Positions 1-16,597 of a stretch of DNA of 62,923 nt are shown here, one piece after another (the stretch's first letter is position 1; the number at the start of each line of letters is the position of its first letter). The notes under the pieces were generated by a model. That model was not told the DNA's origin. It searched no databases and was given only the letters and a program-made list of their open reading frames with translations. The DNA is from an uncultured Eubacteriales bacterium (GTDB lineage: Bacteria > Bacillota > Clostridia > Christensenellales > Aristaeellaceae): NCBI GenBank assembly GCA_902765305.1, contig CACWZI010000002.1, positions 1 to 62,923 on the forward strand, read 5' to 3'. The translations under genes were made by a program, and so were the position numbers.

Positions 1-449
1 GCCCCGCCTATTCGAACATGGACGCCGCCATCGAGGCCACGACGGAGCGGGGCTGCTGCGAACCTGCGCAGGTGTTGATGAAGCCGGAGAGCGAGGAAGT
101 CAAGGCCGCGGAGGCCGAGAAGCGGGCTGAGAGCGCAGTGCAGAGCGCGCAGACGAAGGTCTCGCCCATCGGCCAGGTGTCCGCCGAGGACATCCACGAG
201 GCCCTGGAGGGCGCGGAGGCGATACTGTTCAAATCCCCCACCTGCCCGAACTGCAAGGCGGCCATGGCGCTGCTGGACCGGGCCGGCGTCAAGTACGCGG
301 CAGTGAACGCGGCGGACGCCCGGGAGCTGACGGCGAAGTACGGCGTCAAACAGGCCCCGACGCTGGTGGTGCGCACCGAGGACGGCTTCGAGAAGTTCCG
401 CGGGGTTTCGGACATCAAGGGATGGCTGATGCACACCGTGACGCGGTAA
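1..449 (+). CDS. C-terminal part of a protein ending in a thioredoxin-like domain (5' end outside window)
   Basis: The reading frame is open at base 3 and runs to a TAA at 447-449, so the protein begins outside the window. The last 75 or so residues have a thioredoxin fold pattern: a strand ending in FKSPTCPNCK (a CPNC redox motif), a helix, then the KYGVKQAPTLVV strand with the cis-proline of thioredoxins. An Ala/Glu-rich linker with a CC pair (RGCCEPAQ) precedes it and suggests a fused C-terminal redox module. The main domain cannot be identified from what is visible. The gene ends in a strong hairpin shared with the convergent ccsA. A role in dithiol transfer is inferred from the CxxC motif only. 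Confidence 0.7.
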   Translation, partial: PAYSNMDAAIEATTERGCCEPAQVLMKPESEEVKAAEAEKRAESAVQSAQTKVSPIGQVSAEDIHEALEGAEAILFKSPTCPNCKAAMALLDRAGVKYAAVNAADARELTAKYGVKQAPTLVVRTEDGFEKFRGVSDIKGWLMHTVTR

Positions 450-520: not shown

Positions 521-1336
521 TCACGCGTAGCTGTGCACCCCCGGCAGCCAGGTGTTCACGCCCAGGTAGGTGAACATGACGCAGATGAAGCCGACCACGG
601 CAAAGATCGCGGCGGAGCGGCCCCGCCAGCCCCGGCGCAGGCGCAGATGCAGGTAGATGGCGTAGACGATCCAGGTTACCAGAGACCAGGTTTCCTTCGG
701 GTCCCAGGACCAGTAGCTGCCCCAGGCCCGCTCGGCCCATATGGCGCCGGTGATGATGGTGAAGGTCAAAAACAGCAGCCCCAGGGACACGCTGCGGTAG
801 CTGATCATGTCCAGCTTCTCCCTGTCCGGGATGTGCTGGTCCAGGAAGCCGCTGGCCTTCATCTTGTCCCTCAACAGGAAGATGATGGACAGCACGAAGG
901 ATACGCCGAAGGCCCCGTAGGCGATGATGGCGGTGGAGACGTGAAAGCCCAGCCAGTTGCTGCGCAGGGCGGGCATCAGCTCCTTGACCTCCTTGCTCTG
1001 CATGGCGGCGTAGCCGATGATCAGGAAGATCACCGGCGCGGCGAAGGCCCCCAGCACCGGGAATTTGAAGCGGATCACAAAGATCAGGCTGACCAGGCAC
1101 AGCCCCCAGGCGAAGGAGGTGGCGAACTCATACTGGTTGGTCAGCGGCAGACGGCCCGCGCCGATGCCCCGGCATACCAGGGCGGCCGTGTGCAGCACAA
1201 AGCCGACGATCTGAAGCCCCACGGCCACCCGGGCGACGGCGTCCTTCTTGACGGCGATGAACGCGAAGTACAGTATCATCGCGGCGAAATACGCCAGCAT
1301 GACAATGGTGAACAGCGTGTTTTCAATCTGAAGCAT
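521..1336 (-). CDS. ccsA: Cytochrome c biogenesis protein CcsA/ResC (haem channel and ligase subunit)
   Basis: This is an integral membrane protein of 271 residues with about eight hydrophobic segments. It carries the tryptophan-rich WWD signature of haem-handling proteins (ERAWGSYWSWDPKETW) followed by a helix, as in the System II c-type cytochrome synthase. With ResB it moves haem outward and attaches it to CxxCH motifs on the extracytoplasmic side. I chose the ATG at 1336 because AAAGGAG lies 9 nt upstream of it. A longer frame starting at 1369 would overlap resB further and lacks a site. It overlaps the resB stop by 14 nt, so the two are translationally coupled. The likely substrate is the pentahaem NrfA encoded upstream on the same strand. 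Confidence 0.93.
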   Translation of the reverse strand: MLQIENTLFTIVMLAYFAAMILYFAFIAVKKDAVARVAVGLQIVGFVLHTAALVCRGIGAGRLPLTNQYEFATSFAWGLCLVSLIFVIRFKFPVLGAFAAPVIFLIIGYAAMQSKEVKELMPALRSNWLGFHVSTAIIAYGAFGVSFVLSIIFLLRDKMKASGFLDQHIPDREKLDMISYRSVSLGLLFLTFTIITGAIWAERAWGSYWSWDPKETWSLVTWIVYAIYLHLRLRRGWRGRSAAIFAVVGFICVMFTYLGVNTWLPGVHSYA

Positions 1337-2621
1337 GGGAAGCACTCCTTTGGTCGATCGCCTTTTCAAACTGTTCCCTGAACAGCGCGCCGCCCTTGCG
1401 GCTCTGGCCGTATACAGTCCACAGGCCGTCCGCCTGGCGGATGGCCCACACGCGTGAGGGCTGCACGTACAGGGCCAGCAGCAGGCCCAGCATCGTCACC
1501 AGGCCGCCGACGAGGGCCAGCGGCGTGAAGCGGTCCACCTTGACCTGGATCAGCGTGTAGCTCTGGGGGTTGGAAAAGGTGACGGTGTATGCGTCGATGG
1601 TGATCTCTTCGCCGTCCATCAGCGCGTTCATGCCGATGACCTGGCCCTGGTAGTACACCGAGTACAGATAGGCCGGGTTGTTCAGCTGGTCCGAGGCGGT
1701 GGAGGGGCCGACGCCGGGGGTCATCACGTAGTCGGGGTAGAGGGCGTTCAGCATCACCACCAGGCCTTCCTTGTCCGTGACGTTCATATAGTCCCCCGCG
1801 CAGACCACCTCCTGCTGGATGGGCGCGCCGTCCTTGTAAACGTCCACCTGGGCGGCCCAGCCGGTGGAATTCTGGTAGAACTTCATGCCACACAGGTTGG
1901 CCGGGTGGTTGACGCTGATGGAGGCGCTGCCGCCCTTGCGCCCGGCGGACGCGGCATCCTCCACGGTGATGTCGGTGGTGTACTGGGCGACGGAGCCGTC
2001 CGCCCGTTTGTCCACCCTGAAATCGTCGATGGTCAGGAAGCACTCGGTGTCGCCGATGCGCCGGATCTGGCCGGGCACGCCGTAGACCGCGTACTGCCGC
2101 TGGGTCATCTGCCCCAGGCCAAAGCCCAGTATCAGCAGCAGGATCCCCAGGTGGCACACCCACGCGCCCCACAGTCCGATGGCGTTGCGGGCGGCGAACA
2201 GCGCGTCGCGGCCATCTTCGCTCTTGCAGGGGGCGGGTCCGGGCATGCGCAGCTGCTTGAATACGGCTTCGGCGTCCCGGATGTCCGGGGCGGAGACGTC
2301 GCCGGGCAGCTTCAATGCCGCCTCCGGGCGGGTCTCGGCTTTCGTGCGGCGGATCAGTTGGGGCAGGCGCACAAGGTTGCAAAGCAGCAGGTTCAGGCAC
2401 AAAAACGCGGTGATGGCGATAAACCAGGGGCTGTGAAAGGCGTCATCCAGGTGCAGGGCCATGATGAGGCCGGCGGTGCGCTCGGAATAGCGCTGGCTGT
2501 ACCAGGCGTAGGTCTGGTTCTGGGTGATCAGGCTGCTGGCGGCGCAGGCCAGGGCCAGGATCAGCAGCAGCGCGATGGCAAAGCGCATCGAGGATATGAA
2601 TTTCCAGATTTTCTTGAGCAT
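1323..2621 (-). CDS. resB: Cytochrome c biogenesis protein ResB (Ccs1)
   Basis: The 432-residue protein matches ResB in layout: an N-terminal helix pair (MRFAIALLLILALACAASSLI), a second pair near residues 70-170 (WFIAITAFLCLNLLL, WVCHLGILLLILGFGLGQM), a large extracytoplasmic domain, and a last helix (LVGGLVTMLGLLLALYV) near the C-terminus. ResB partners CcsA in System II haem attachment, presenting apocytochrome. It is followed directly by ccsA with an overlap. No strong ribosome binding site precedes the ATG, which suggests coupling or weak initiation. The region just upstream holds the two HAD-type genes on the same strand. Confidence 0.92.
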   Translation of the reverse strand: MLKKIWKFISSMRFAIALLLILALACAASSLITQNQTYAWYSQRYSERTAGLIMALHLDDAFHSPWFIAITAFLCLNLLLCNLVRLPQLIRRTKAETRPEAALKLPGDVSAPDIRDAEAVFKQLRMPGPAPCKSEDGRDALFAARNAIGLWGAWVCHLGILLLILGFGLGQMTQRQYAVYGVPGQIRRIGDTECFLTIDDFRVDKRADGSVAQYTTDITVEDAASAGRKGGSASISVNHPANLCGMKFYQNSTGWAAQVDVYKDGAPIQQEVVCAGDYMNVTDKEGLVVMLNALYPDYVMTPGVGPSTASDQLNNPAYLYSVYYQGQVIGMNALMDGEEITIDAYTVTFSNPQSYTLIQVKVDRFTPLALVGGLVTMLGLLLALYVQPSRVWAIRQADGLWTVYGQSRKGGALFREQFEKAIDQRSASHASD

Positions 2622-2672: not shown

Positions 2673-3179
2673 CTAATGGGCGCTCTCCTCCATACGCTTG
2701 ATTTCGTTGGCCCGGGCGATGATCTTATCCTTCCAGTCGTCGTCCTCGGCGTCCAAATGATAGGCGTGAAACCCGTACTGGCGGGCCGAGGTACAGATGA
2801 CCATTTCATCGTCGATGTGCAGCGAGATCCGGTATCGGTTGGGCATCTTCTGGGGCAGTATGGTCTTGTTGTCCCGCTGGACCTCCTTCAAATGCCGGGT
2901 GGCGTTGACGATTCCGTCGAAGCGCACGCCGTACAGCCGGAACAGGCCCTTGATGTATTTCTCTGTCCGGTAGGAGGAGGTATAGACCCACACCTCGTAG
3001 CCCAATGCCTGGAGCTGCCGGATCAGGTCAGGAGCGCCCAGGCGAAGCCTTTCCACGAATAGCCTGTTGAACGGAAAGGGCGGCGGGGGTTCGGTCTTGT
3101 GGGTCTTGGGCGAGACAAAGAGCACCTCGTCCAGGTCGAAGGAGACGCGCATCTTCTGCGCCGGCAGATTCTTATTCAT
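2673..3179 (-). CDS. HAD-superfamily protein, short paralogue of the upstream gene
   Basis: This 168-residue protein has the HAD motifs: motif I RVSFDLDEVLF with the Asp nucleophile and acid/base at D15 and D17, motif II VYTSS near residue 67, and motif IV HIDDE at D123-D124. It lacks an obvious cap domain. Its substrate is unknown. It overlaps the end of the upstream gene by 8 nt, so the two are almost certainly co-translated. Its whole length resembles residues 140-260 of that neighbour, so the pair arose by duplication. Both motif IV aspartates are kept here, so this copy is the likelier active phosphatase. Its place between nrfA and resB is unexplained. Confidence 0.75.
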   Translation of the reverse strand: MNKNLPAQKMRVSFDLDEVLFVSPKTHKTEPPPPFPFNRLFVERLRLGAPDLIRQLQALGYEVWVYTSSYRTEKYIKGLFRLYGVRFDGIVNATRHLKEVQRDNKTILPQKMPNRYRISLHIDDEMVICTSARQYGFHAYHLDAEDDDWKDKIIARANEIKRMEESAH

Positions 3180-4056
3180 GCTTATCCAGCTCTCCGATCA
3201 GATTCATGATCTCTTGGGACCACTGTGCGCCGGTTTCCTTCACGGGATATTCCTCATAGGTCTTGTACCGGCTGTCCACCTTCACGATTCCACGGGCGTC
3301 GATGTGGATCGTCGTCGGATATTGCTCCGAAACGCTTTTTTTCAGTCGCTCGTGAACGGCGGCGCCCAGGCGGCCCTTCCCGCCGGTGCCTGTGACGACG
3401 CCCGTCACGCGGGTTTGATACAGCATGAACAGCGCCTGGATCTGTTTAAACGAATAGTAGTTCGCGGAGTAAACCCATATGTCATAGCCCTTGTCGTTGA
3501 GGAAGCGGAACAGTGCCGGAATGCCGAGCCTGAGGCGCTGCCTGTAGCGAACGCGCAGGAAAAAGGGCAGCTTTTCGACGGGACCGTCGTCCATGGAGCG
3601 GAAAACCACCTCATCCAGGTCCAGGGTCACGCGCCGATCGCTCCGGGAACGCTGGAGCATCTTTTGGATGTCCTCTTCCATGGGCAGGTCGACGATCCGG
3701 ATCGGCAGGCTGCGCTGCCCGGTCATGATGGCCGCGGCCCACCGATGATGGCCGTTCAGTATCAGATACCCGCTGGGGCGTATTTTATCCACTGTAAGCG
3801 GTTCGACGTCGTGTTCGACGGAGGAACGGGTCCCGAACCTGCGGAAATCCTGGCTGTATTTGGAAATGATGCCCGAATTGGGACCGATGGTCGGTATGCA
3901 GAATTCATCCTCCGGGTTGGGGTGGAGGTTTTTACAGGCGGTCCGCCGGATCAACAGGCGGCGCAGGAATCCCGCCCTGACCGGCACGTAGATTCCCTTG
4001 GTGTTCTCAAGTTCTTTTTTAAGGTAATCCTGAAAGCCTGTGATGTTTTCAGCCAT
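3172..4056 (-). CDS. ParB/sulfiredoxin-like domain fused to a HAD-type domain
   Basis: About 294 residues are predicted from the ATG at 4056, which follows GGGAGG at a rather long distance; a longer frame runs up to 4176. Residues 95-125 contain LILNGHHRWAAAI, the NGHHR box seen in ParB/Srx-fold proteins, which in that fold binds nucleotide. Residues 142-290 form a HAD-like domain with motif I VTLDLDEVVF (D146, D148) and motif II VYSANY, but motif IV is IDAR instead of IDDE, so one metal-binding aspartate is missing. It is paralogous in this half to the next gene. I infer a regulatory or nucleotide-linked partner for the smaller HAD protein; no function is known to me. Confidence 0.65.
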   Translation of the reverse strand: MAENITGFQDYLKKELENTKGIYVPVRAGFLRRLLIRRTACKNLHPNPEDEFCIPTIGPNSGIISKYSQDFRRFGTRSSVEHDVEPLTVDKIRPSGYLILNGHHRWAAAIMTGQRSLPIRIVDLPMEEDIQKMLQRSRSDRRVTLDLDEVVFRSMDDGPVEKLPFFLRVRYRQRLRLGIPALFRFLNDKGYDIWVYSANYYSFKQIQALFMLYQTRVTGVVTGTGGKGRLGAAVHERLKKSVSEQYPTTIHIDARGIVKVDSRYKTYEEYPVKETGAQWSQEIMNLIGELDKHE

Positions 4057-4160
4057 AGGTTTTGTCAGTGCCTCCCTTGTGTGTAAGAGGAGTGTGGGCG
4101 GTATCGCCGTGTCGGTGTGAGCGTTGGTTCCTGACGCATTAAAATGCGTTACTATGCAAT

Positions 4161-4189
4161 TGTAGGGGCGGCGCATCGCCGCCCCTACA
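4161..4189. terminator. Hairpin downstream of the Rnf-NrfA genes
   Basis: A perfect 13-bp inverted repeat (TGTAGGGGCGGCG, loop CAT) lies between nrfA and the HAD gene on the minus strand. It has no T-run, so it may act as an RNA-stabilising or attenuating structure, or be a member of a dispersed GTAGGGGCG palindrome family (a relative is near 45738). Confidence 0.5.
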
Positions 4190-4203: not shown

Positions 4204-7200
4204 TCAGGTCGTCTGCGGGTCCAGCAGCGCCATGGCCTCGTCGATCTTGGCGTCGGCGGTGTCAAGGCAGTGCATGGACAGCTCGCTGTTGTGGGCGCCC
4301 TCGGAGTTCTCCACGTAGCAGTAGTCAAAGAACCACTGGGCCTCGCGATGCAGCTTGCGGACGGCGTTCAGGTCGTCCTCGCCCCAGGTGCCCGAGGCCA
4401 CTGCGGCGGCCAGGGCGTCCTTCATGGCGGAAAGCCTGTTGCCCACCTCGGTCTCCCGGGCGGTGACCTTTTCCTGGATGCCCTTGACGAAGGCCGTCAT
4501 GTCGGTGTCGCCGTGGCACTGGGCGCAGCTGGCCAGCAGCGCCTCGTTTTCCAGCGGGCTGACCAGCATATGGCTGCGGTAGGCGACGCCCGCGTCGGTG
4601 GTTTCCGTGGGCATGTGGCAGTCGGCGCAGTTCAGGAACGCCGCGTGCTTGCCCTGCAGGAAGGTCTCCATCTCGGGGTGCTGGGCCTTCAGCATGGCGG
4701 TGCCGGTGCTCTCCTGGGTCCAGTCGGCAAAGCCCATGCCGTCGTAGTAGGCCAGGATCGCCTCGGGCGTCATCTCCTCGACGCTGTGGTAGGGCATCAT
4801 GGTCTCGCTGTCGGCGGGGGTGAAGTAGTATTCGATGTGGCACTGGCCGCAGGACAGCGTGGCGGGGTCGATCCGGGCCACGTTCTCGCCCAGGGCCTCG
4901 TTCACGTACTGGTGGGTGACCTTCAACGCGCCGCCGGCCCCCATGTCGTCGCCGTGGCAGGTGTAGCAGCTGACGTTGTTGGTCATCTGGGGGAACACCT
5001 CGTTGAAGGGCATCGAGTACACGGCCACGCCCTGTTCCTCGATCATCTTGTGCAGGTCCGGGGTCTTGCAGGTGATGCAGTTGGCCTTCGGGTGGGGGCG
5101 CTGGGTCTTGGCCACGTCCTCCAGGGTGTACTCGTGGCCGCGGGCGCTGCCGTAGTCCTTGGCGAAGCCGTAGCCCTCGTAGATATTCACCAGGTAGGGG
5201 TCCTGCTCCAGGTAGTCCACCACGTAGCTGTTCTCCCGGTTGTCGCCCATCGTGGTGACGATGCCGGGAAGGATGGCCTTGAGGCGCTCTTCTTCGGTCA
5301 GCTCAGCCGCGTCAGCTTCCTCATTCTCATCTGCGGCGGCCTGGGTTCCGGGCCTGGGGCGGACGAAGCGGGAGATGTCGGAGCTTTCAGCCTCGGACGC
5401 GGCGGCCTCCCCGGCCTCCGCTTCGGCACTGGCGGCAGAGCCGGGCCTGGGGCGCACAAAGCGGGAGATGTCAGAGCTTTCTGCCTCAGACACGGCAGCC
5501 TCAGCGGCCTCCGCTTCGGCGCTCGGGGCGGCAGAACCGGGCCTTGGGCGGACGAAGCGGGAGATGTCGGTGCTTACGGCCTCGGTCGAGGCGGTTTCCC
5601 CGGCATCCGTTTCGGCGTTCACGACGGCAGAGCCGGGCCTGGGGCGGACGAAGCGGGAGATGTCGGAGCTTTCGGCCTCGGTCGTGGGAGCCTCGGTAGC
5701 TTCTTCGGCTTCGGCCTCCTCGCCCGCGGCGCGGGCCATCAATTCATCGACGGCCTCCTGCACGGCGTTGGAGGAGACGGTGACGCCGGAGACGGCATCC
5801 ACGGCCTGGCTGTTCACGATCTGTTCGGCCCACGTGCCGCGGATGTCGTCGGTGAGCATGTCCACCTGGCCATCAAGGGCTTCGGAGGATACGACGGCCT
5901 GGGTGAGGTTGCCGTCCAGCACGGTGACGGCGACGTCGATGTCGCTGAAATCAGTGGTCTTGCGCACAGCGTAGGTGCCGTCCACCAGCCCCATGGATTC
6001 AACCTCGGGTGCGGCTTCGGCGCTCGCGGTCCCGGAGACGGGCCTGGGGCGCACGAAGCGGGAGATGTCGGAATTGCCGGCTTCGGTCGCGGGAGCCTCG
6101 GCAGCTTCTGCTTCTTCGCCTGCGGCGCGGGCCATCAGCTCGTCGACGGCCTCCTGCACGGCAGTGGAGGAGACGGTGACGCCGGAGACGGCATCCACAG
6201 CCTGGTTGTTCACGATCTGTTCGGCCCAGGCGTTTCGGATGTCGTCTGTGAGCATGTCTACCTGGCCATCAAGGGCTTCGGAGGACACGGCGGCCTGGGT
6301 GAGCTTGCCGTCCAGCACGGTGACGGCGACGTCGATGTCGCTGAAATCGGTGGTCTTGCGAACCGCGTAGGTGCCGTCCGTCAGTCCGGAGGCCTCGGCT
6401 TCGGGTTCGGCCTGAGCTTCGCCGGCCACGGCCAGTGCGGCAGCGGCGGCCTCCAGCTCGGCGACCTTCGCCTCGGCGGCGGTGTTGGCGGTCTCCAGCT
6501 CGGCGGCCTTGGCCTCGGCGGCCTCGGCGCGGGCCTGCGCTTCGGCCAGCGCGACCTCCAGCGCGGCGATCCTGCCGTCGTCCGCGGCGGCTTCGCTGCC
6601 GCTTGCGGCTTGGGCCATCAGCTCGTCGACGGCCTCCTGCACGGCGGCAGAGGAGACGGTGACGCCGGAGACGGCGTCCACGGCCTGCTTTTCAACGATC
6701 TGTTCAGCCCAGGCATTGCGGATGTCGTCGGTGAGCAGGTCGTTCGCGCCCTCGGAGGAGACCTTCGCGGCGGTGATCACGCCATTTTCGACGGTCATCT
6801 CCACGTCGATGGTGCTGAAATCGGTGGTCTCCTGGATCTGGTAGGTGCCGTCGGCCAGGCCCGCGGCTTCCCCGCCGCCATTGACCTGGACCATCAGCTG
6901 CTCCACGGACTCCTTCACGGCGTCGGAGGAGACGGTGACGCCGGAGACGGCGTCCACGGCCTGTTTCTCCACGATCTGCTGGGCCCAGGCGCTGCGGATG
7001 TCGTCGGTGAGCATGTCCACCTGGCCCTCGAGGGGGGCGGAGGTGACGCTGGCGTCGGTGATCTTGCCGTCTTCGACGGTGATGCCCACGTCGATGGTGC
7101 TGAAGTCGGTGGTCTTTTCCACGTGGAATTCGCCGTCGGCCGGCGTAGCCGCCTCATCGGCGGGGGCTTCGGCCTCAGGTTCCGGTTCCGGTTCGGGCTC

Positions 7201-7599
7201 GGGCGTGGCCGCGGGCTCGGGCGTGGGCAGTCCGGCCTGGGTGAAGATGTCCGCGGCGGCTTCCTTGACGGAGTCGGCGGAGTACTTCAGCGAGGCGGAG
7301 GAGATCACGTCGTTCTCATAGGACTGGTTGGCCACGATGGAATCGGCCCACTGGGCGCGAAGCTCGTCGGTCAGCAGATCGTTGTCGCCGGACGAGGTGA
7401 TCTCGGCATCGAGGATCTGGTCGCCCTGAATGGTCATGGCCACCTGCACATTGCTGTAATCGTTGCTGCGCTCGGCGGTATAGGGACCGGGCTTCTGGTA
7501 GATCACCTCGCCGCCCCGGCCGATGCCGCAGGCGAATACGACCCCCAGGATCAGGATCAATGCCGATACCACCAGCATGGCGATCGTCTTTTTTTCCAT
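4204..7599 (-). CDS. nrfA: Membrane-anchored multi-FMN-binding-domain / pentahaem NrfA fusion (cytochrome c nitrite reductase type)
   Basis: This 1131-residue protein has four parts. Residues 7-24 form one hydrophobic helix ending at C24, possibly an anchor or an atypical lipobox. Residues 37-125, 158-238, 252-330, 410-490 and 541-622 are five FMN_bind-type repeats; four end in VDAVSGVTVSS, the position of the flavinylation motif, and the first is degenerate (DVISSASLKYS). Residues 340-395 are a charged coiled coil. Residues 510-750 carry five copies of DISRFVRPRP. The C-terminal domain (765-1131) has five haem motifs: CITCK at 841, CYTCH at 878, CGQCH at 917, CADCH at 991 and CAQCH at 1025. 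The CxxCK first haem, CHIEYYF, and ENSEGAHN with H1103 are NrfA hallmarks. NrfA reduces nitrite to ammonium with six electrons, outside the membrane. No NrfH donor is encoded nearby. The gene lies 35 nt after rnfB with a good site (AAGGAAGGG), so the flavin repeats probably carry electrons from Rnf. The combination is inferred; substrate could also be sulfite or hydroxylamine. Confidence 0.9.
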   Translation of the reverse strand: MEKKTIAMLVVSALILILGVVFACGIGRGGEVIYQKPGPYTAERSNDYSNVQVAMTIQGDQILDAEITSSGDNDLLTDELRAQWADSIVANQSYENDVISSASLKYSADSVKEAAADIFTQAGLPTPEPAATPEPEPEPEPEAEAPADEAATPADGEFHVEKTTDFSTIDVGITVEDGKITDASVTSAPLEGQVDMLTDDIRSAWAQQIVEKQAVDAVSGVTVSSDAVKESVEQLMVQVNGGGEAAGLADGTYQIQETTDFSTIDVEMTVENGVITAAKVSSEGANDLLTDDIRNAWAEQIVEKQAVDAVSGVTVSSAAVQEAVDELMAQAASGSEAAADDGRIAALEVALAEAQARAEAAEAKAAELETANTAAEAKVAELEAAAAALAVAGEAQAEPEAEASGLTDGTYAVRKTTDFSDIDVAVTVLDGKLTQAAVSSEALDGQVDMLTDDIRNAWAEQIVNNQAVDAVSGVTVSSTAVQEAVDELMARAAGEEAEAAEAPATEAGNSDISRFVRPRPVSGTASAEAAPEVESMGLVDGTYAVRKTTDFSDIDVAVTVLDGNLTQAVVSSEALDGQVDMLTDDIRGTWAEQIVNSQAVDAVSGVTVSSNAVQEAVDELMARAAGEEAEAEEATEAPTTEAESSDISRFVRPRPGSAVVNAETDAGETASTEAVSTDISRFVRPRPGSAAPSAEAEAAEAAVSEAESSDISRFVRPRPGSAASAEAEAGEAAASEAESSDISRFVRPRPGTQAAADENEEADAAELTEEERLKAILPGIVTTMGDNRENSYVVDYLEQDPYLVNIYEGYGFAKDYGSARGHEYTLEDVAKTQRPHPKANCITCKTPDLHKMIEEQGVAVYSMPFNEVFPQMTNNVSCYTCHGDDMGAGGALKVTHQYVNEALGENVARIDPATLSCGQCHIEYYFTPADSETMMPYHSVEEMTPEAILAYYDGMGFADWTQESTGTAMLKAQHPEMETFLQGKHAAFLNCADCHMPTETTDAGVAYRSHMLVSPLENEALLASCAQCHGDTDMTAFVKGIQEKVTARETEVGNRLSAMKDALAAAVASGTWGEDDLNAVRKLHREAQWFFDYCYVENSEGAHNSELSMHCLDTADAKIDEAMALLDPQTT
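5350..6072 (-). repeat. Region with five DISRFVRPRP motif copies in the nrfA fusion linker
   Basis: Motif copies start at residues 511, 646, 678, 710 and 741, separated by Ala/Glu/Ser-rich spacers of about 20-25 residues (the first pair also spans FMN repeat 5). The motif is basic and proline-rich in otherwise acidic spacers, so it may bind a partner surface or the cell wall. I know no named family for it. Confidence 0.85.
5725..7491 (-). repeat. Five tandem FMN_bind-type domain repeats inside the nrfA fusion
   Basis: Each unit is about 80 residues: a strand start (TDFSxIDV), a TVxDGxIT turn, DxLTDDIRxAWAEQIV, then VDAVSGVTVSS and a helix. Units 4 and 5 are nearly identical in protein and DNA, a sign of recent duplication. 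The usual flavinylation box ends in GAT; here it reads GVT in four units and is lost in unit 1. Confidence 0.85.
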
Positions 7600-7634
7600 A
7601 TATCTATCATCCCTTCCTTATCGTCCGTCCGGCG

Positions 7635-8432
7635 TCAGTTGGCCGGAGGCAGGGTGATGACCTTGGCGGGGCACTTCTGGGCGCACTTGCCGCACTGGGT
7701 GCAGTTGTCGTAATTCACCTGCGCCAGGTTGCCGGTGACGTGGATGGCGTCAAACTCGCACTGCTTGGTGCACAGCATGCAGCCGATGCAGCCGGCGGTA
7801 CACACCTTCTTGACCAGGGGGCCCCTGTCGTGGTTGGAGCACTGCACGATGACCCGCTTGGAGGCGGGTACCAGTTCGATCAGCCCCCTGGGGCAGGCCT
7901 TCGCGCACAGGCCGCAGCCGATGCAGCGCTTGCGGTTGACCATGGCCACGCCGTCCACCACCTGGATCGCGTCCTGGGGACACGCGGTGGCGCAGGAACC
8001 CAGGCCCAGGCAGCCGTAGCCGCAATCGGTGAGGTTCAGCCCGGCCAGCACGGCGCTGCGGCAGTCCTGTATGCCGATGTAGTGGCCCTGGTTGTGGGTC
8101 ACGTCACAGCTGCCCTTGCAGCGCACGAAGGCCACCTTGCGCTCGGTTGCTTCCGCGCTCGTGCCCATGATCTCGCCGACCTTTTGGGCCACCGGCGCGC
8201 CGCCCACCGGGCAGGCATTCACCGGTGCCTCGCCCTTGGCGATGGCCGCCGCCAGCGCGTCGCAGCCGGCGAAGCCGCAGGCACCGCAGTTGTTGCCGGG
8301 CAGGCACTCGCGCACGGCGCTCTCCCGCTGATCCACTTCCACCTTGAATTTATCGCCGGCGAATACCAGGCCCACGCCGACCACCATGCCGATGGCGGCG
8401 ATGACAAGCGTAGTAATGATGATGGTTATCAT
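7635..8432 (-). CDS. rnfB: Rnf complex subunit RnfB (iron-sulfur ferredoxin-type subunit)
   Basis: The 265-residue protein starts with one transmembrane helix (MITIIITTLVIAAIGMVVGV). It continues with the RnfB cluster CGACGFAGC and then several 4Fe-4S ferredoxin motifs (CIGCGLCAKACP, CIGCMLCTKQC, CTQCGKCAQKCP). RnfB is the cytoplasmic entry point for electrons from reduced ferredoxin into the ion-pumping ferredoxin:NAD oxidoreductase. I place the start at 8432 because GGAAGGGGG lies just upstream; a longer frame to 8483 overlaps rnfA. It is 16 nt from rnfA and 35 nt from nrfA, in one operon. Confidence 0.95.
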   Translation of the reverse strand: MITIIITTLVIAAIGMVVGVGLVFAGDKFKVEVDQRESAVRECLPGNNCGACGFAGCDALAAAIAKGEAPVNACPVGGAPVAQKVGEIMGTSAEATERKVAFVRCKGSCDVTHNQGHYIGIQDCRSAVLAGLNLTDCGYGCLGLGSCATACPQDAIQVVDGVAMVNRKRCIGCGLCAKACPRGLIELVPASKRVIVQCSNHDRGPLVKKVCTAGCIGCMLCTKQCEFDAIHVTGNLAQVNYDNCTQCGKCAQKCPAKVITLPPAN

Positions 8433-8448
8433 GCCTATCCCCCTTCCG

Positions 8449-9030
8449 TCAGAACGACAGGCCGGAGAAGCCCATGAAAGCAATGGACATCAACGCCGCG
8501 GAAATCAGTACGATGGGCGCGCCGCGCAGCGGGGCGGGAAGATCCTCCTCGCGGATGCGGCTGCGGATACTGGCCAGCAGCACGATGGCGATGGTGTAGC
8601 CCACGGCCGTGCCGAAGCCGGAAAACACGCACTGGGTGAAGTTGTAGCCGTCCTGCACGTTGGTCAGGGCCACGCCCAGCACCGCGCAGTTGGTGGTGAT
8701 CAGGGGCAGGTAGATGCCCAGCGCCTGGTACATGCTCGGGGATTTCTTTTTCAGGAACATCTCCACGATCTGGACCAGGGCCGCGATGACCAGTATGAAC
8801 ACGATGGTCTTCATGTAGTCCAGGCCCAGGGGGGCCAGCACATAGTCGTAGAGCAGGCTGGCCACCGCCGAGGCGATGGTGATGACGAAGATCACCGCGC
8901 CGCCCAGGCTGGCGGAGGCCTTCATCTGCTTGGACACGCCCAGGAACGAGCAGATGCCCAGGAACTGGTTCAGCACCACGTTGTTGATCAACGCGCCGGA
9001 GATGATGATCATGATCAGGCTGCTGTTCAT
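8449..9030 (-). CDS. rnfA: Rnf complex subunit RnfA
   Basis: A 193-residue protein with six hydrophobic helices and the RnfA/NqrE signature near the N-terminus (NNVVLNQFLGICSFLG). RnfA and RnfE form an inverted-topology pair that holds an iron-sulfur centre in the membrane and passes electrons across it. The start codon overlaps the rnfE stop as ATGA, so the two are coupled. Confidence 0.95.
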   Translation of the reverse strand: MNSSLIMIIISGALINNVVLNQFLGICSFLGVSKQMKASASLGGAVIFVITIASAVASLLYDYVLAPLGLDYMKTIVFILVIAALVQIVEMFLKKKSPSMYQALGIYLPLITTNCAVLGVALTNVQDGYNFTQCVFSGFGTAVGYTIAIVLLASIRSRIREEDLPAPLRGAPIVLISAALMSIAFMGFSGLSF

Positions 9031-9713
9031 TTGGCGCTCACCTCCCCGGATTTATCGCAGGCGGCGGCGCAATTGGCGCACATGCCGTCGCAGCCGCTCT
9101 CAACCAGCTTGCGCTGGCGGGTCTTGATGCCGATGGCGTTCATCACCGCGATGATGAAGGCGATGATCAGGAACGCTCCCGGCGGCTGGATGAAGATGCC
9201 GATGGGCTCGAAGCTCTTGGGCAGCAGCTGGACGCCGAAGGCGGTGCCGTTGCCCAGGATCTCGCGCAGCAGGGCCGCCAGCGTCAGCGCCAGCGTGAAG
9301 CCGATGCCCATGCCCAGGCCGTCCATCACGGACAGCAGCGGGGTGTGCTTGTTGGCGTAGGCCTCGGCGCGGCCCAGGATGATGCAGTTGACCACGATCA
9401 GCGGGATGTAGATGCCCAGCGCGGCGTACAGCGAGGGCAGGTAGGCCTGGATCAGCAGCTCGGTGACCGTCACCAGCGAGGCCACGATCACGATGTAGCT
9501 GGGCAGGCGCACCTGATCGGGTATGGCCTTGCGCAGCAGTGAGATCACCAGGTTGGACAGGATCAGCACCGCCGTGGTGGACAGGCCCATGCCGATGCCG
9601 TTCATGGCACGGGTGGACACCGCCAGTGTGGGGCACATGCCCAGCATCAGTATCAGCGTGGGGTTTTCCTTGACGACGCCGTTGTACAGGCGCTCAATGT
9701 ACTTGTTCTTCAT
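9027..9713 (-). CDS. rnfE: Rnf complex subunit RnfE with a cysteine-rich C-terminal tail
   Basis: The 228-residue protein has six membrane helices and the RnfE/NqrD pattern (NPTLILMLGMCPTLAVSTRA). It is the partner of RnfA in transmembrane electron transfer. The last 25 residues are unusual: after the final helix comes CDGMCANCAAACDKSG with four Cys, a pattern that could bind a metal or an iron-sulfur cluster on the cytoplasmic side. It starts 2 nt after the end of the rnfDG fusion. Confidence 0.94.
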   Translation of the reverse strand: MKNKYIERLYNGVVKENPTLILMLGMCPTLAVSTRAMNGIGMGLSTTAVLILSNLVISLLRKAIPDQVRLPSYIVIVASLVTVTELLIQAYLPSLYAALGIYIPLIVVNCIILGRAEAYANKHTPLLSVMDGLGMGIGFTLALTLAALLREILGNGTAFGVQLLPKSFEPIGIFIQPPGAFLIIAFIIAVMNAIGIKTRQRKLVESGCDGMCANCAAACDKSGEVSAK

Positions 9714-9715
9714 GC

Positions 9716-11293
9716 TCAGGCTCCCCCCTTCACCGTGTTTTTGTAGAAGTCGAGGGCGGCGTTGACGGCGTTGACCACCGCGCCGGAGGTGGTGGACGCG
9801 CCGGAGACGCTGTCGATCTCGTCATCGGCGGTGGAGCCGCCGGCCTTGTTCAGCGTGAACCTCTCCACGGCCTTGCCGGCGAACTGGCCCTTGAATTCGT
9901 CCTCGTCCACCCGCATGCCAAGGCCCGCGGTCTCGTTCAGCTCGGTAAAGGAGATGCCGTTCAGCGTGCCGTCGTCGTCGATGCCCACCGCCAGGGTGAC
10001 GTTGCCGTGGTAGCCGTCGGCGGTGGTGACGCTGATGGCGTGGCCGGTGACCTGGCCCTGTGCGTCGATGGCGGTGAAGGCCTCGTTGATGGTCACCCGG
10101 CCGAAGGCCGAGCCGTAGGTCTCGCCATTCATGTCGGCGATGGCCTTGTCCAGGGCCTCGTCGGTTTCAAAGTGGTCGGCGTCGGGGCAGACCACCAGGT
10201 AGGAGGCCGCCTGGGCCGCACGCTGCTGGTCGGCGATGATGTCCTTGGTCATGCCGTAGACGCCGCTGAGGGCCAGGCCCGCGATGGCGGCGATCACCGT
10301 CAGCACCAGGGCCGGGCGGGGGATGCGCTTGTACAGCGGAATGCCGGAGGCCCGCGCCTGCCGGATGATGGAATACTTCGTGAAGGCGTAGGGCCTGGAC
10401 ACGATGTAGTGGTCGATCAGCGGGGTGAACAGGTTGCCGGTGATCACGCAGTAGCTGAAGGAATCGGCGGTGCCGCCGTACAGGCGGAAGATGCCGCCCA
10501 GCAGGCCGATCAGGCAGCCGTAGATCGCCTGGCCCAGCCGGGTGACGGGGGACGTGACGTAGTCGGTGGCCATGAAGAAGGCCGCCATCACAACGCCGCC
10601 GCCGCTGATATGGGCCAGCAGGAAGGGCAGGTTGAAGCCCTGGCCGCCGAACAGCCCGATCGTCAGCGTGAACATGATCAGCACGGAGAAGCAGATCTGG
10701 CCGTGGATGAATCCGAAGGCCCACAGCGCCAGGCCGCCCGCCAGCAGCGCCAGCGCGGAGTTGCCGATGACGCCGTTGGTCAGGCCCAGGAACATCTTGG
10801 TGACGCTCACCGCGTCGCCGTTCATGAGCAGCGCCACCGGGGTGGCGGAGGAGACGGCGTCGGGGGAGAAGGCGGACATGGCGCTGCTGAAGGAGATCAG
10901 CAGGAAGCAGCGCCCGGCCAGGGCGGGGTTGATGAAGTTCTTGCCCAGGCCGCCGAAGCAGCACTTGCAGATCAGTATCGCGAACATGCTGCCCAGCACC
11001 GGCAGGTGCAGCGGCACCGACGGACTCAGCGACAGGGCCAGCAGCAGGCCGGTCACGGCGGCGCTGCCGTCCTTCCAGGTGTCCGGCTTGTGGCACAGCT
11101 TGTCAAACACCAGCTCGCACAGCACGGCGGTGAACACGCTCAGCAGCACCACCAGCAGCGCGTGAATGCCGAAGTGGATCACGCCCACCAGCGTGGCCGG
11201 CAACAGCGCCAGCAGCACCACCCGCATGATGTAGGCGGTGGTCCACCGGTCCCTTACGTGGGGGCTGGAGGATAGATTCAGCATCGTATTCAT
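9716..11293 (-). CDS. rnfD: RnfD-RnfG fusion (two covalent-flavin subunits of the Rnf complex in one chain)
   Basis: One 525-residue frame holds a complete RnfD (residues 1-330, multiple helices, SSATPVALL with T151 at the covalent FMN position and DYVTSPVTRLG near 244) followed by a complete RnfG (helix LTVIAAIAGLALSGVYGM at 331-348, then an extracytoplasmic FMN_bind domain). The RnfG flavin box is DSVSGASTTS, with S500 where Thr is usual. In other bacteria these are separate genes. Both flavins face the outer side and accept electrons from RnfA/E. The start is coupled to the rnfC stop by 4 nt and has GGGAGG upstream. Confidence 0.92.
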   Translation of the reverse strand: MNTMLNLSSSPHVRDRWTTAYIMRVVLLALLPATLVGVIHFGIHALLVVLLSVFTAVLCELVFDKLCHKPDTWKDGSAAVTGLLLALSLSPSVPLHLPVLGSMFAILICKCCFGGLGKNFINPALAGRCFLLISFSSAMSAFSPDAVSSATPVALLMNGDAVSVTKMFLGLTNGVIGNSALALLAGGLALWAFGFIHGQICFSVLIMFTLTIGLFGGQGFNLPFLLAHISGGGVVMAAFFMATDYVTSPVTRLGQAIYGCLIGLLGGIFRLYGGTADSFSYCVITGNLFTPLIDHYIVSRPYAFTKYSIIRQARASGIPLYKRIPRPALVLTVIAAIAGLALSGVYGMTKDIIADQQRAAQAASYLVVCPDADHFETDEALDKAIADMNGETYGSAFGRVTINEAFTAIDAQGQVTGHAISVTTADGYHGNVTLAVGIDDDGTLNGISFTELNETAGLGMRVDEDEFKGQFAGKAVERFTLNKAGGSTADDEIDSVSGASTTSGAVVNAVNAALDFYKNTVKGGA

Positions 11294-12642
11294 TTTTTAC
11301 CTCCCGCCTGCTGGGCGCGCTTCTGCGCCATGATTTCAGCCTTGGTCTGCTTGAAGATCTGCATCAGGGGCCGCTTGGCCGGGCAGATGTAGGTGCAGCT
11401 GCCGCACTGGATGCACTCCAGGCCGTACAGCTTCTCTTCGTAGCGCTTGTAGTCGCGGTCGATGGCGGCGTCGGCCATCAGCTGAGGCAGCAGGCCCACC
11501 GGACAGACGGTGGTGCAGCGCCCGCAGTGCAGGCAGGCGGTCATTTGGGCCTCGGCCAGCTCGTTGGGGTCCTCGGTCAACAGCGTCAGGCCGTTGTTCT
11601 GCTTCTGGATCGGCACGTCCAGGCTGCCCAGCGCAATGCCCATCATCGGGCCGCCCACCAGCGCCTTCTTCAGGAGCACGCCGTCCTTGATTCCGCCGGA
11701 GGCCTGCAAGAGCTCCGCGAAGCTGGCGCCGTCGCGCACGATCCAGTTGCCGGGCTTCGCCGCCGCGTCGCCGGTCAGCGTGAAAACCTGCTTGTACAGA
11801 GGCTCGTTGAACACCACGGCCCGCTGGATGGCGTAGAGCGTGCCCACGTTGTCCACCACGCAGCCCACGTCGGCGGGCAGCTTGGTGATGGGGAAGTCCA
11901 CGCCGGCGACCACCTGGATCAGGCTGCGCTCGCCGCCCTGGGGGTATTTGGTCTTAAGCGGCAATACCCGCATGCGGGCCTTGCCTGAGACGGCCTTCTG
12001 CATGGCCTCGATGGCTTCGGGCTTGTTGCGCTCGATGCCGATGACGCCCTCGGCGTTGGGGAACAGCCGAAGCACCAGCTCCAGGCCCTCGACGATGGCG
12101 TCGGCTTCGGTGCGCATCAGCTGGTCGTTACAGGTCAGGTAGGGCTCGCACTCCGCGCCGTTGGCGATGACATAGCGGATCAGATCCGGGTTTTTGGGCT
12201 GCAGCTTGACGTGGGTGGGAAAGCCCGCGCCGCCCAGGCCCACGATGCCCGCGCTCTGGATGCGGAAGAGGATGTCCCCGTTGGCGATGGCGGCCGTGTC
12301 CTGCCGCCGGGTGTAGTCCTCGGCGGGGGTGAACTGGCCGTCGTTGTCCACCACGATGCAGTCGGCCATCGAGCCCATCAGCGTGAGCCGCTTCTCGATG
12401 CCCTTCACCGTGCCGGAGCAGGAACTGATGACGTGGGCGGAAACAAAGCCGTCCGCCTCGGCGATGCGCTGGCCCACCAGCACGGTGTCGCCCTTTTTCA
12501 CGATGGGCTTGGCCGGCTTGCCGATGTGCTGGGCAAGCGGGAAAACCATCTCGCCCGTCGGCAGGAATTCGCGCAGCGGGACGTCCCGGCTCAGTTCCTT
12601 GCGCCCTGCCGGGTGAACGCCGCCGCGAAAGGTGTCTTTCAC
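11290..12642 (-). CDS. rnfC: Rnf complex subunit RnfC (NADH-binding, first gene of the operon)
   Basis: 450 residues. The central part has the flavin/NADH-binding glycine pattern of the NuoF family (GLGGAGFPTHVKL), and the C-terminal part has two 4Fe-4S motifs (CLHCGRCTTVCP, CIQCGSCTYICP). RnfC is peripheral on the cytoplasmic face and exchanges electrons with NAD(H). The start is GTG at 12642, preceded by AAAGGGGAG. It heads an operon rnfC-rnfDG-rnfE-rnfA-rnfB-nrfA with gaps below 40 nt. Confidence 0.95.
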   Translation of the reverse strand: MKDTFRGGVHPAGRKELSRDVPLREFLPTGEMVFPLAQHIGKPAKPIVKKGDTVLVGQRIAEADGFVSAHVISSCSGTVKGIEKRLTLMGSMADCIVVDNDGQFTPAEDYTRRQDTAAIANGDILFRIQSAGIVGLGGAGFPTHVKLQPKNPDLIRYVIANGAECEPYLTCNDQLMRTEADAIVEGLELVLRLFPNAEGVIGIERNKPEAIEAMQKAVSGKARMRVLPLKTKYPQGGERSLIQVVAGVDFPITKLPADVGCVVDNVGTLYAIQRAVVFNEPLYKQVFTLTGDAAAKPGNWIVRDGASFAELLQASGGIKDGVLLKKALVGGPMMGIALGSLDVPIQKQNNGLTLLTEDPNELAEAQMTACLHCGRCTTVCPVGLLPQLMADAAIDRDYKRYEEKLYGLECIQCGSCTYICPAKRPLMQIFKQTKAEIMAQKRAQQAGGKK

Positions 12643-12866: not shown

Positions 12867-13109
12867 TTGAAGATTGATACGAACGAAATCGTAACCGCGA
12901 CGGAGGCCAACCAGAACTTCTCCCGCGTCGCCAGAATGGCGGAGAAGAAGGGCAGGGTCGTCATTTTCAAGAACAATCGGCCCAAGCTGCTGGTGATCGA
13001 CCTGGACAAGGAGCCGCAGATCGAAATGACCGAGGACGAGAAGCTGGAGTTTGTCGCAGCCAGAATCCTGAAGGAACACCGGGCGGCCTTTGAGGAGCTG
13101 GCGAAATGA
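12867..13109 (+). CDS. phd: Phd/YefM-type antitoxin
   Basis: The 80-residue protein begins at a TTG codon with GAGGTGG 5 nt upstream. The N-terminal half (ATEANQNFSRVARMAEKKGRVVIFKNNRPKLL, written here only as a pattern of an N-terminal DNA-binding fold) fits the Phd/YefM fold, and the charged C-terminal tail would wrap and neutralise the toxin. It overlaps the doc gene by 4 nt (ATGA), the classical antitoxin-first arrangement. Confidence 0.85.
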   Translation: MKIDTNEIVTATEANQNFSRVARMAEKKGRVVIFKNNRPKLLVIDLDKEPQIEMTEDEKLEFVAARILKEHRAAFEELAK

Positions 13110-13483
13110 TCAGGTTTTCAAGAGAAAAGGTCTTGCTCCTCCATCAGCTGTTGGCGGAAGCCACCGGCGGCAGCATCGGCGTGCGCGATCAGGGCCTGCT
13201 GGACTCCGCCCTGGAGGGAGCCTTCGCCGGTTTTGGGAATCAGGAATTCTATCCCACGAAAGAGGAAAAGGGTGCGCGGCTCGGCTATACCCTGATTTCC
13301 AACCATGCCTTTGTCGATGGCAACAAGCGCATTGGCATATATGTTATGCTTTCCTTTTTAGAAATGAACGGCATTCGAATTTCCTGTACCGATGAAGAAC
13401 TTGTTCAGGTCGGGCTTTCTGTTGCGGATGGAAAGATGAGATATGAGGAGTTGTACAGTTGGGTGCTGGAGCATGAAGAATAA
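13106..13483 (+). CDS. doc: Doc toxin (Fic-family kinase)
   Basis: The 125-residue protein carries the Doc form of the Fic motif, HAFVDGNKR, at about residue 70. Doc phosphorylates elongation factor EF-Tu and stops translation; the Phd tail blocks its ATP site. The Fic motif is intact, so the toxin is probably active. It is coupled to the antitoxin gene. Confidence 0.88.
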   Translation: MIRFSREKVLLLHQLLAEATGGSIGVRDQGLLDSALEGAFAGFGNQEFYPTKEEKGARLGYTLISNHAFVDGNKRIGIYVMLSFLEMNGIRISCTDEELVQVGLSVADGKMRYEELYSWVLEHEE

Positions 13484-16388: not shown

Positions 16389-16445
16389 AAACAACGTCAG
16401 GGGCGGCCAATGAATTGAGGCCGCCCCTGACGTTGTTTCTATATC
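16389..16445 (+). terminator. Strong intrinsic terminator
   Basis: A perfect 20-bp stem (16389-16408 with 16419-16438) is followed by a T-rich run, closing the secreted-protein gene. Confidence 0.9.
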
Positions 16446-16486
16446 TTAATATATTTAACGAAACCAAGACAAAACGCGCTTTCCAC

Positions 16487-16515
16487 TTTACATTTATGCC
16501 GGGTTATAGTAAAAT
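16487..16515 (+). promoter_or_regulatory. Promoter of the PTS genes
   Basis: TTTACA (16487-16492) and TAAAAT (16510-16515) are 17 bp apart. The leader of about 75 nt before the PTS ATG contains a GC-rich inverted repeat but no recognised antiterminator target. Confidence 0.7.
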
Positions 16516-16597
16516 GATGATTAATCGGGGATTTATGCGCGCTTTCCGCCGGAAGGGCGCAGAAATCCCGGAACTTAGAAGAAGGGGAGAGAAATCT

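Follow-up and report, generated by a model that had tools for sequence, protein, structure and literature searches.

In the NrfHA and NrfBCD systems, quinol electrons reach the pentahaem nitrite reductase NrfA via NrfH or NrfBCD, and to our knowledge the known NrfA systems all draw their electrons from quinol. The Rnf complex is known mainly as a pump that operates between ferredoxin and nicotinamide adenine dinucleotide (NAD+). Ferredoxin electrons pass through RnfB to the iron-sulfur cluster of RnfA/E, then to the flavin mononucleotide (FMN) of RnfG on the outside of the cell, and finally through RnfD and RnfC to NAD+. In Methanosarcina acetivorans, Rnf is also associated with a multihaem cytochrome, MmcA. 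Here we describe a stretch of DNA of 62,923 nucleotides (contig CACWZI010000002.1 of GenBank assembly GCA_902765305.1, from an uncultured Eubacteriales bacterium; hereafter the window), in which the genes for a whole Rnf complex are followed by a gene that joins FMN-type domains to NrfA. We propose that this is a quinone-free, nitrite-ammonifying respiratory operon in which Rnf feeds NrfA at the outer face of the membrane, and we assign this reading a probability of roughly 0.7.

All genes of the operon lie on the minus strand of the window. The first is rnfC (11290..12642; 450 residues), which encodes the NADH-side subunit and matches TIGR01945 (481 bits), Complex1_51K and RnfC_N. It is followed by rnfDG (9716..11293), whose 525-residue product fuses RnfD (TIGR01946, 226 bits, residues 10-302) to RnfG (TIGR01947, 105 bits, residues 329-519), and then by rnfE (9027..9713; 228 residues; TIGR01948, 243 bits), rnfA (8449..9030; 193 residues; TIGR01943, 259 bits) and rnfB (7635..8432; about 265 residues from its ATG; TIGR01944, 108 bits), which encodes the ferredoxin-side subunit. 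Subunit types A, B, C, D, E and G all pass their NCBIfam cut-offs, with D and G forming one protein. Next comes the gene for the 1131-residue fusion of multiple FMN domains and NrfA (4204..7599; PF04205 and PF02335), then two uncharacterised genes, and then resB (1323..2621; PF05140, 181 bits) and ccsB/ccsA (521..1369; TIGR03144, 272 bits) for cytochrome c maturation of the system II type. We place the start of rnfB at the ATG at 8432, which is preceded by GGAAGGGGG; the mechanically listed TTG at 8483 would overlap rnfA. With this start, the spacings within the operon range from 4-nucleotide overlaps to a gap of 35 nucleotides between rnfB and the fusion gene, in line with an earlier note on this DNA that had put all gaps under 40 nucleotides. 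The coordinates and the order rnfC-rnfDG-rnfE-rnfA-rnfB-nrfA given in that note are likewise correct, as judged from the family matches of each gene. The operon is real, and because its gene order is kept across dozens of species, chance is excluded as the source of that order.

The NrfA domain of the fusion (residues 771-1131; 4207..5289) carries five haem motifs, of which the first is CxxCK. It matches PF02335 with 259 bits (E 1e-76, residues 790-1126), clearly above the cut-off of that family, and aligns with the NrfA proteins of Shewanella and Escherichia coli among sequences in the PDB. A structure model of the domain built with 79 sequences (mean predicted local distance difference test score, pLDDT, of 84.7) matches E. 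coli NrfA with a TM-score, computed over the query, of 0.84-0.86. For conservation we compared 87 NrfA sequences, comprising 79 loci from a collection scan, the window and 7 further loci. Ten haem cysteines, the haem-1 lysine and the four other proximal histidines are invariant in 87/87, as are, when the alignment is mapped on structure 1gu6, the Arg, Tyr and His of the active site and the Glu, Lys and Gln of the calcium site. On 1gu6 we take Arg, Lys, Tyr and His to be the catalytic residues and Glu, Lys and Gln to be the calcium-site residues. The domain also falls far below the NCBIfam equivalog cut-offs (NF008339, 214 bits versus 595; TIGR03152, 176 versus 692.5), and since these models fit proteobacterial NrfA, we regard the window protein as part of a divergent branch. 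At position 126 of the domain (window 4912-4914), a site between haems 2 and 3, the 87 Rnf-clade sequences and one diverged relative (L027) all carry His, whereas 30/30 NrfA proteins of the NrfH type carry Arg, Gln or Ser; this His may mark a changed site of electron entry.

A role in sulfite reduction was also considered for this domain. Nitrite is preferred over sulfite as the substrate for two reasons: Foldseek gave weak matches to the octahaem sulfite reductase MccA (TM-score about 0.3), and none of the NrfA residues is missing. Sulfite and hydroxylamine, which the earlier note had named as examples of another reductase role, may be side substrates.

The pairing of Rnf and NrfA that the note had pointed out extends well beyond the window. 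We searched 396 genomes of the same order, 18 of which encode NrfA, the window genome included. In 15 of the 17 others, the whole set rnfC-DG-E-A-B lies directly upstream of nrfA on the same strand. Of the remaining two, one (L025, genome G264) is cut by a contig end and the other (L027, genome G365) has a diverged NrfA without rnf. G264 has its rnf set on a different contig, which breaks off in FMN repeats just past rnfB, and this fits a single operon. Separately, a scan of a collection of 84,980 species matched at least 595 stretches, 471 of them encoding relatives, and the best 80 were kept, giving 79 loci whose mechanically called open reading frames (ORFs) received their labels from phmmer searches with the window proteins. 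The rnf genes upstream of nrfA are complete at 58 of the 79 loci, cut by a contig end at 7 and lacking at 14. Among these 14, five have less than 1 kb of upstream DNA (L038, L040, L041, L057 and L114) and one (L043) begins with FMN fragments. RnfD and RnfG form a single protein in 58/58 complete loci, and resB lies downstream of nrfA at 77/79. According to the record titles, the 79 loci come mostly from rumen or ruminant-gut metagenome-assembled genomes (MAGs) of Clostridia. The closest relatives among the best 80 are L038 and L039, from Clostridia or Clostridiales bacterium MAGs, with 95% NrfA identity. The conserved unit is Rnf with fused RnfD-RnfG together with NrfA.

The fused RnfDG protein tracks NrfA closely. 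Full-length RnfDG (E 4e-170 or better) occurs in 17/396 genomes of the order, all of them among the 18 with NrfA, and Fisher's test on the resulting table (17/1/1/377) gives p about 1e-27 with kinship ignored. Another 249 genomes of the order match much more weakly, and among the matches listed most cover the RnfD half alone at about 35-50% identity. Two fragmentary cases were also seen. In genome G056 the two halves of an RnfDG-type gene lie at the ends of contigs, the contig stops 265 nucleotides past rnfB, and no NrfA was found in this genome; G089 has a 58% match over 179 residues of RnfDG, also at a contig end. In four further genomes (G396, G397, G400 and G403), the RnfDG operon adjoins a gene for a flavoprotein with FMN and flavin adenine dinucleotide (FAD) domains, from which it appears that Rnf with fused RnfDG may serve other outer-face reductases too. 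A related arrangement is present at L160 (8053-14427) and L162 (4005-10286), where RnfC-RnfDG operons with diverged RnfA/E-like proteins and no RnfB match have an FMN-FAD flavoprotein gene adjacent; perhaps this type is an Rnf without a ferredoxin module.

Several loci have unusual forms of the unit. At L088 (8969-11086), RnfB and NrfA occupy a single open frame of 705 residues in one MAG, which may be a true fusion, a sequence error, or a frame in which an inner start codon is still used. At L068 (9776-12211), an 811-residue protein carries two complete NrfA domains in tandem, with ten haem motifs. Six spirochaete-labelled rumen MAGs (L076, L082, L084, L089, L099 and L102) have nrfA with rnf genes upstream, and in the NrfA tree they form one subclade inside the Clostridia-labelled Rnf clade. 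This is as expected of a transferable unit and suggests that rnf-nrfA has passed between phyla.

If NrfA received its electrons in the established manner, NrfH and quinones should accompany it. No NrfH (PF03264) was detected in any of the 18 NrfA genomes of the order sample; an nrfH gene elsewhere in the genome, which the earlier note had listed as part of the evidence that would count against it, thus did not turn up in them. The setting is different in the rest of the phylum. In a sample of 398 genomes, 91 have a match over the NrfA family cut-off, and at 28 of 30 NrfA loci an adjacent ORF encodes 137-235 residues with 3-4 haem motifs, which corresponds to NrfH in size and composition. A tree of 118 NrfA domains, made by a quick method, sets these 30 apart from the other 88 (SH-aLRT, an approximate likelihood-ratio branch support, of 100) and places L027 as sister to the 87 Rnf-clade sequences. 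Because the window genome alone holds both RnfDG and NrfA in the phylum sample, that sample informs on the NrfH-linked background and not on the association.

With respect to quinones, both known menaquinone routes need a UbiA-type prenyltransferase. UbiA was not found in 17 of the 18 NrfA genomes of the order sample, nor at the curated cut-off in 48 of 50 further NrfA genomes selected from the 79 loci with the FMN clade left out, and 14/14 control genomes were positive. The window genome itself (3.88 Mb in 177 contigs, 93% complete) has one NrfA and one RnfD match at E 1e-15 or better, and profile searches of it gave no match for NrfH, UbiA or molybdopterin oxidoreductases. The incompleteness of MAGs weakens single absences of this kind but not the overall pattern, and the gut carriers of Rnf-NrfA seem to be without quinones.

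Molybdopterin enzymes were not found in 16 of the 18 NrfA genomes of the order sample. Without such an enzyme, and hence without a known nitrate reductase, the cells should depend on nitrite made by others. Nitrite that comes from outside may be in low supply, and it could be argued that the Rnf-to-NrfA path serves to clear nitrite, nitric oxide or hydroxylamine at low flux with little energy gained, particularly given that NrfA also reduces the latter two compounds. Keeping NrfA in an operon with a whole ion pump and a haem-attachment system would be costly for such a purpose, and the cluster is retained as a unit in many species. We consider detoxification as the main role to be rather unlikely, and favor respiration.

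The fusion protein of the window has an architecture that agrees with the description in the earlier note, namely a membrane anchor, five FMN-type repeats and a pentahaem NrfA with CxxCK, as found by hidden Markov models (HMMs) and an AlphaFold model. An N-terminal membrane helix (residues 2-23; 7531..7596), seen in the sequence and the model, is followed by a diverged domain 1 with the motif DVISSAS (residues 38-122; 7234..7488). The other four domains carry DAVSGVT: domain 2 (residues 156-240; 6880..7134), domain 3 (residues 251-332; 6604..6849), domain 4 (residues 409-493; 6121..6375) and domain 5 (residues 541-625; 5725..5979). A long predicted helix (residues 340-393; 6421..6582) separates domains 3 and 4. 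Pfam finds four FMN_bind stretches, and an HMM built from these four recovers the diverged domain 1 with 47 bits. In the AlphaFold model of the whole fusion, a strand-strand-strand-helix-helix pattern is repeated five times; this model, from 8 sequences with a mean pLDDT of 54.5, serves for the five FMN domains and not for NrfA or for the arrangement of domains. With five such domains behind an N-terminal helix, and with a presumed location outside the cytosol, the protein resembles the multi-flavinylated proteins, which have more than one FMN-binding domain outside the cytosol. No FAD domain is detected in it by Pfam. The stretch ahead of NrfA is disordered and rich in Glu and Ala. The motif (S/T)DISRFVRPRP occurs in five copies in a disordered acidic region (residues 514-750; window 5350-6060, minus strand), four of whose RFVRPRP copies fall in the acidic linker proper (residues 649-750; 5350..5655), and L024, L041, L042 and L043 carry YMRxRP, YMRARP or MMRPRP versions.

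Flavins would be attached to these domains by ApbE. The earlier note had proposed a search for apbE elsewhere in the genome, and one copy is indeed present (G000 C12:27459-28280); in the order sample ApbE occurs in 17/18 NrfA genomes, the exception being G104, which is 88% complete. The DAVSGVT motif (four copies) and DVISSAS motif (one copy) are near the canonical ApbE motif, D-x-x-[ST]-G-A-[ST] as given in PMC12052999, but not identical to it. The same source describes a Klebsiella fumarate reductase in which flavinylation was about 50% after an Ala-to-Val change. Other members of the FMN clade have Ala at the position where the window has Val (e.g., L020 and L023). Given the Val of DAVSGVT and the Klebsiella result, flavin occupancy of the window fusion is likely but may be partial.

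How general is the flavin array? NrfA proved to be fused to FMN or FMN-FAD domains at 11 of the 79 loci, and at the other 68 it is without a detected FMN domain, although two of these may still be fused (L038 is cut at a contig start, and L043 has FMN fragments in neighbouring ORFs). Plain NrfA proteins are mostly about 425-460 residues long. In the NrfA tree, the FMN fusions fall in one clade of 18 rows that includes the window (SH-aLRT 99), with L062 as the exception, and in that clade the array may precede NrfA, follow it or flank it on both sides, with differing numbers of domains. The proposal that Rnf is wired to NrfA by the flavin repeats does not survive this survey, because most Rnf-NrfA operons have a plain NrfA and the repeats cannot be an essential wire. 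Given the variation in number and position, a flexible relay or an additional outlet is a better fit than a fixed wire, and the array is most likely a lineage-specific relay or outlet. No FMN-NrfA fusion was found beside an unrelated donor among the loci with readable upstream DNA (L025, L040 and L041 are contig-cut), an arrangement that the earlier note had named as evidence to the contrary. At L028 (9764-12688) and L062 (8135-11056), FMN_bind, FAD_binding_2 of the fumarate/urocanate reductase type and NrfA occur in one protein, which possibly gives each chain two reductase sites; at L028 a separate four-FMN protein adjoins it.

Differences in the number and place of the FMN domains might also be expected of a broad surface reductase like OcwA, which would pass electrons mainly to extracellular iron, humics or shuttles and reduce nitrite only incidentally. 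Foldseek places OcwA after the nitrite reductases (E 8e-6, TM-score 0.46), and multi-flavinylated proteins have been proposed to act in long-range transfer in the text of PMC8238504. Such a role is very improbable in our estimation, since the NrfA catalytic residues are kept in 87/87 sequences and most members have no array.

Taken in order, the steps that we propose are as follows. Electrons from reduced ferredoxin would enter RnfB and cross the membrane via RnfA/RnfE, a passage that is regarded as powering the export of Na+ or H+. They would next arrive at the FMN bound covalently to RnfG at the outer face. From RnfG they would pass to membrane-anchored pentahaem NrfA, instead of or besides travelling through RnfD and RnfC to NAD+, and NrfA would reduce nitrite to ammonium at the outer face. 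Nitrite has an E0' of about +0.34 V, and a branch from RnfG to nitrite would retain the pumping step while rendering it practically irreversible. In the lineage of the window, the five FMN-type domains between the membrane helix and NrfA might act as a flexible flavin relay or a further electron outlet, and in most relatives NrfA without the array would dock directly on Rnf. Both the membrane helix found on plain NrfA and the joint RnfB-NrfA frame of L088 are in keeping with a complex in the membrane. ResB and CcsB would attach the haems, as ApbE would the flavins.

A number of observations weigh against this proposal. RnfC, the NAD side of the complex, is kept, and Rnf may still work mainly as a ferredoxin:NAD+ pump. 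The flavin motifs of the window depart from the canonical ApbE motif. UbiA exceeds the cut-off in G254 as well as in the L049 and L062 genomes. The disregard of kinship in Fisher's test is a further point, as are genome G626 of the same class, where a fused protein resembling RnfDG (43% identity) occurs without any NrfA match, and G365, the only one of the 18 in which a diverged NrfA has neither adjacent rnf nor RnfDG. Finally, 8/79 loci have a real gap, with at least 1.8 kb of upstream DNA and no rnf, and a whole-genome search of the L114 genome gave no RnfDG match.

These eight loci (L066, L093, L105, L108, L109, L110, L112 and L115) are nrfA-resB-ccsB units away from rnf, and they would be expected if nrfA resides in rnf operons merely for joint regulation and obtains its electrons from another donor. 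Not all eight are independent, because the NrfA proteins of L105 and L110 are near-identical. When eight genomes whose nrfA locus shows no rnf were searched (seven of the eight unlinked loci, with L114 replacing L115), RnfDG was found elsewhere in 7/8: five full-length fused genes at 50-56% identity, a partial one in L105, and two pieces in one 552-residue frame in L108. Moreover, no candidate for another donor emerged, in that the fetched flanks of the 79 loci have no other ORF with three or more haem motifs, and the absences of NrfH and UbiA described above, like the single frame of L088, also speak against co-location without contact. We judge it to be quite improbable.

On a broader scale, it is reasonable to speculate, with a slight leaning in favor, that what was once a ferredoxin:NAD+ pump has become, in the Rnf subclass with fused RnfD-RnfG, a pump whose electrons end on a terminal reductase at the outer face. 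In most cases this reductase would be NrfA, and in some relatives flavinylated FAD reductases would take its place. In the same view, rnf-nrfA-resB-ccsB would be a self-contained, horizontally transferred unit for nitrite respiration without quinones or nitrate reductase, spread across ruminant-gut Clostridia and Spirochaetes, which one lineage has lengthened by up to about six FMN domains.

The remaining genes of the window can be dealt with briefly. The two uncharacterised genes between nrfA and resB (3172..4176 on the nrfA side and 2673..3179 on the resB side, both on the minus strand) have no Pfam match. By eye they share a DLDEVxF stretch, perhaps HAD-like, and the gene on the nrfA side has counterparts only in L038 and L039 among the loci compared. 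At the contig end, a thioredoxin- or glutaredoxin-like protein with CPNC (18-449, plus strand) adjoins ccsB. Pfam matches elsewhere denote a Fic/DOC protein (13106-13483), a PTS (phosphotransferase system) EIIABC-type transporter (16415-18451), two carboxylesterases (23501-25291 and 27241-28956) and a sortase (43339-44739), none of which bears on nitrite metabolism.

The earlier note knew of no described example of the fusion, but its architecture is already in print. Meheust et al. (2021, eLife, PMC8238504) reported Rnf clusters with multi-flavinylated RnfG whose Christensenellales versions add a multihaem cytochrome domain, and the legend of their Fig. 6H has the multihaem, multi-flavinylated Rnf drawn as a bifurcated (branched) path. 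As in the window, an Rnf cluster is combined with several FMN-binding domains and a multihaem domain, and these are probably the same proteins. In the passages of that paper compared here, the haem domain does not bear the name NrfA and no role in nitrite ammonification is put forward, nor is there any treatment of the FMN-free majority or of the absence of NrfH and quinones. A 2024 paper on multi-flavinylated proteins and Rnf (PMC11334425) does not have the word "nitrite" in its main text, and the main text of a 2023 nrfA survey (PMC10716430) has neither Rnf nor nrfH. Our literature searches, which did not cover supplementary tables, found no paper that names an Rnf-NrfA operon or identifies the haem part as NrfA. 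The NrfA identity, the FMN-free majority, the RnfDG marker and the NrfH-free and quinone-free setting were not found in print by these searches.

If the proposal is true, a single ion pump and a single terminal reductase could make up a respiratory chain without quinone in presumed fermenters. This would account for how rumen bacteria that lack quinones might draw energy from nitrite, and it would bring new participants into nitrite ammonification in the rumen, a process in competition with methanogens for reducing power. In the text of the studies that we consulted, rumen nrfA has been assigned to Selenomonas, Mitsuokella and Wolinella (PMC6776011) and to Prevotella and Bacteroides (PMC12918512). 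The direct feeding of outer-face acceptors by Rnf also becomes a testable question.

Compared with described systems, the window type shares with NrfHA and NrfBCD a pentahaem NrfA with CxxCK and the same active-site residues. Those systems, of which NrfH1A1 of Sporomusa ovata is an example of nitrite ammonification described in the text of PMC12780646, use quinol via NrfH or NrfBCD, whereas the window type has no NrfH, mostly no UbiA, and Rnf as its operon partner. The flavinylated FMN_bind-FAD_binding_2 reductases of the fumarate/urocanate type likewise have outer-face reductase domains joined to FMN domains, but they carry a FAD domain, as do the NrfA fusions of L028 and L062, which the window protein does not. 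Finally, like MmcA and like the decahaem CbcC-like protein that accompanies Rnf in Desulfovibrionaceae in the text of PMC11434368, the window pairs an Rnf cluster with a multihaem cytochrome c as an extra electron partner. MmcA and the CbcC-like proteins are electron carriers, whereas the cytochrome of the window is the terminal reductase itself.

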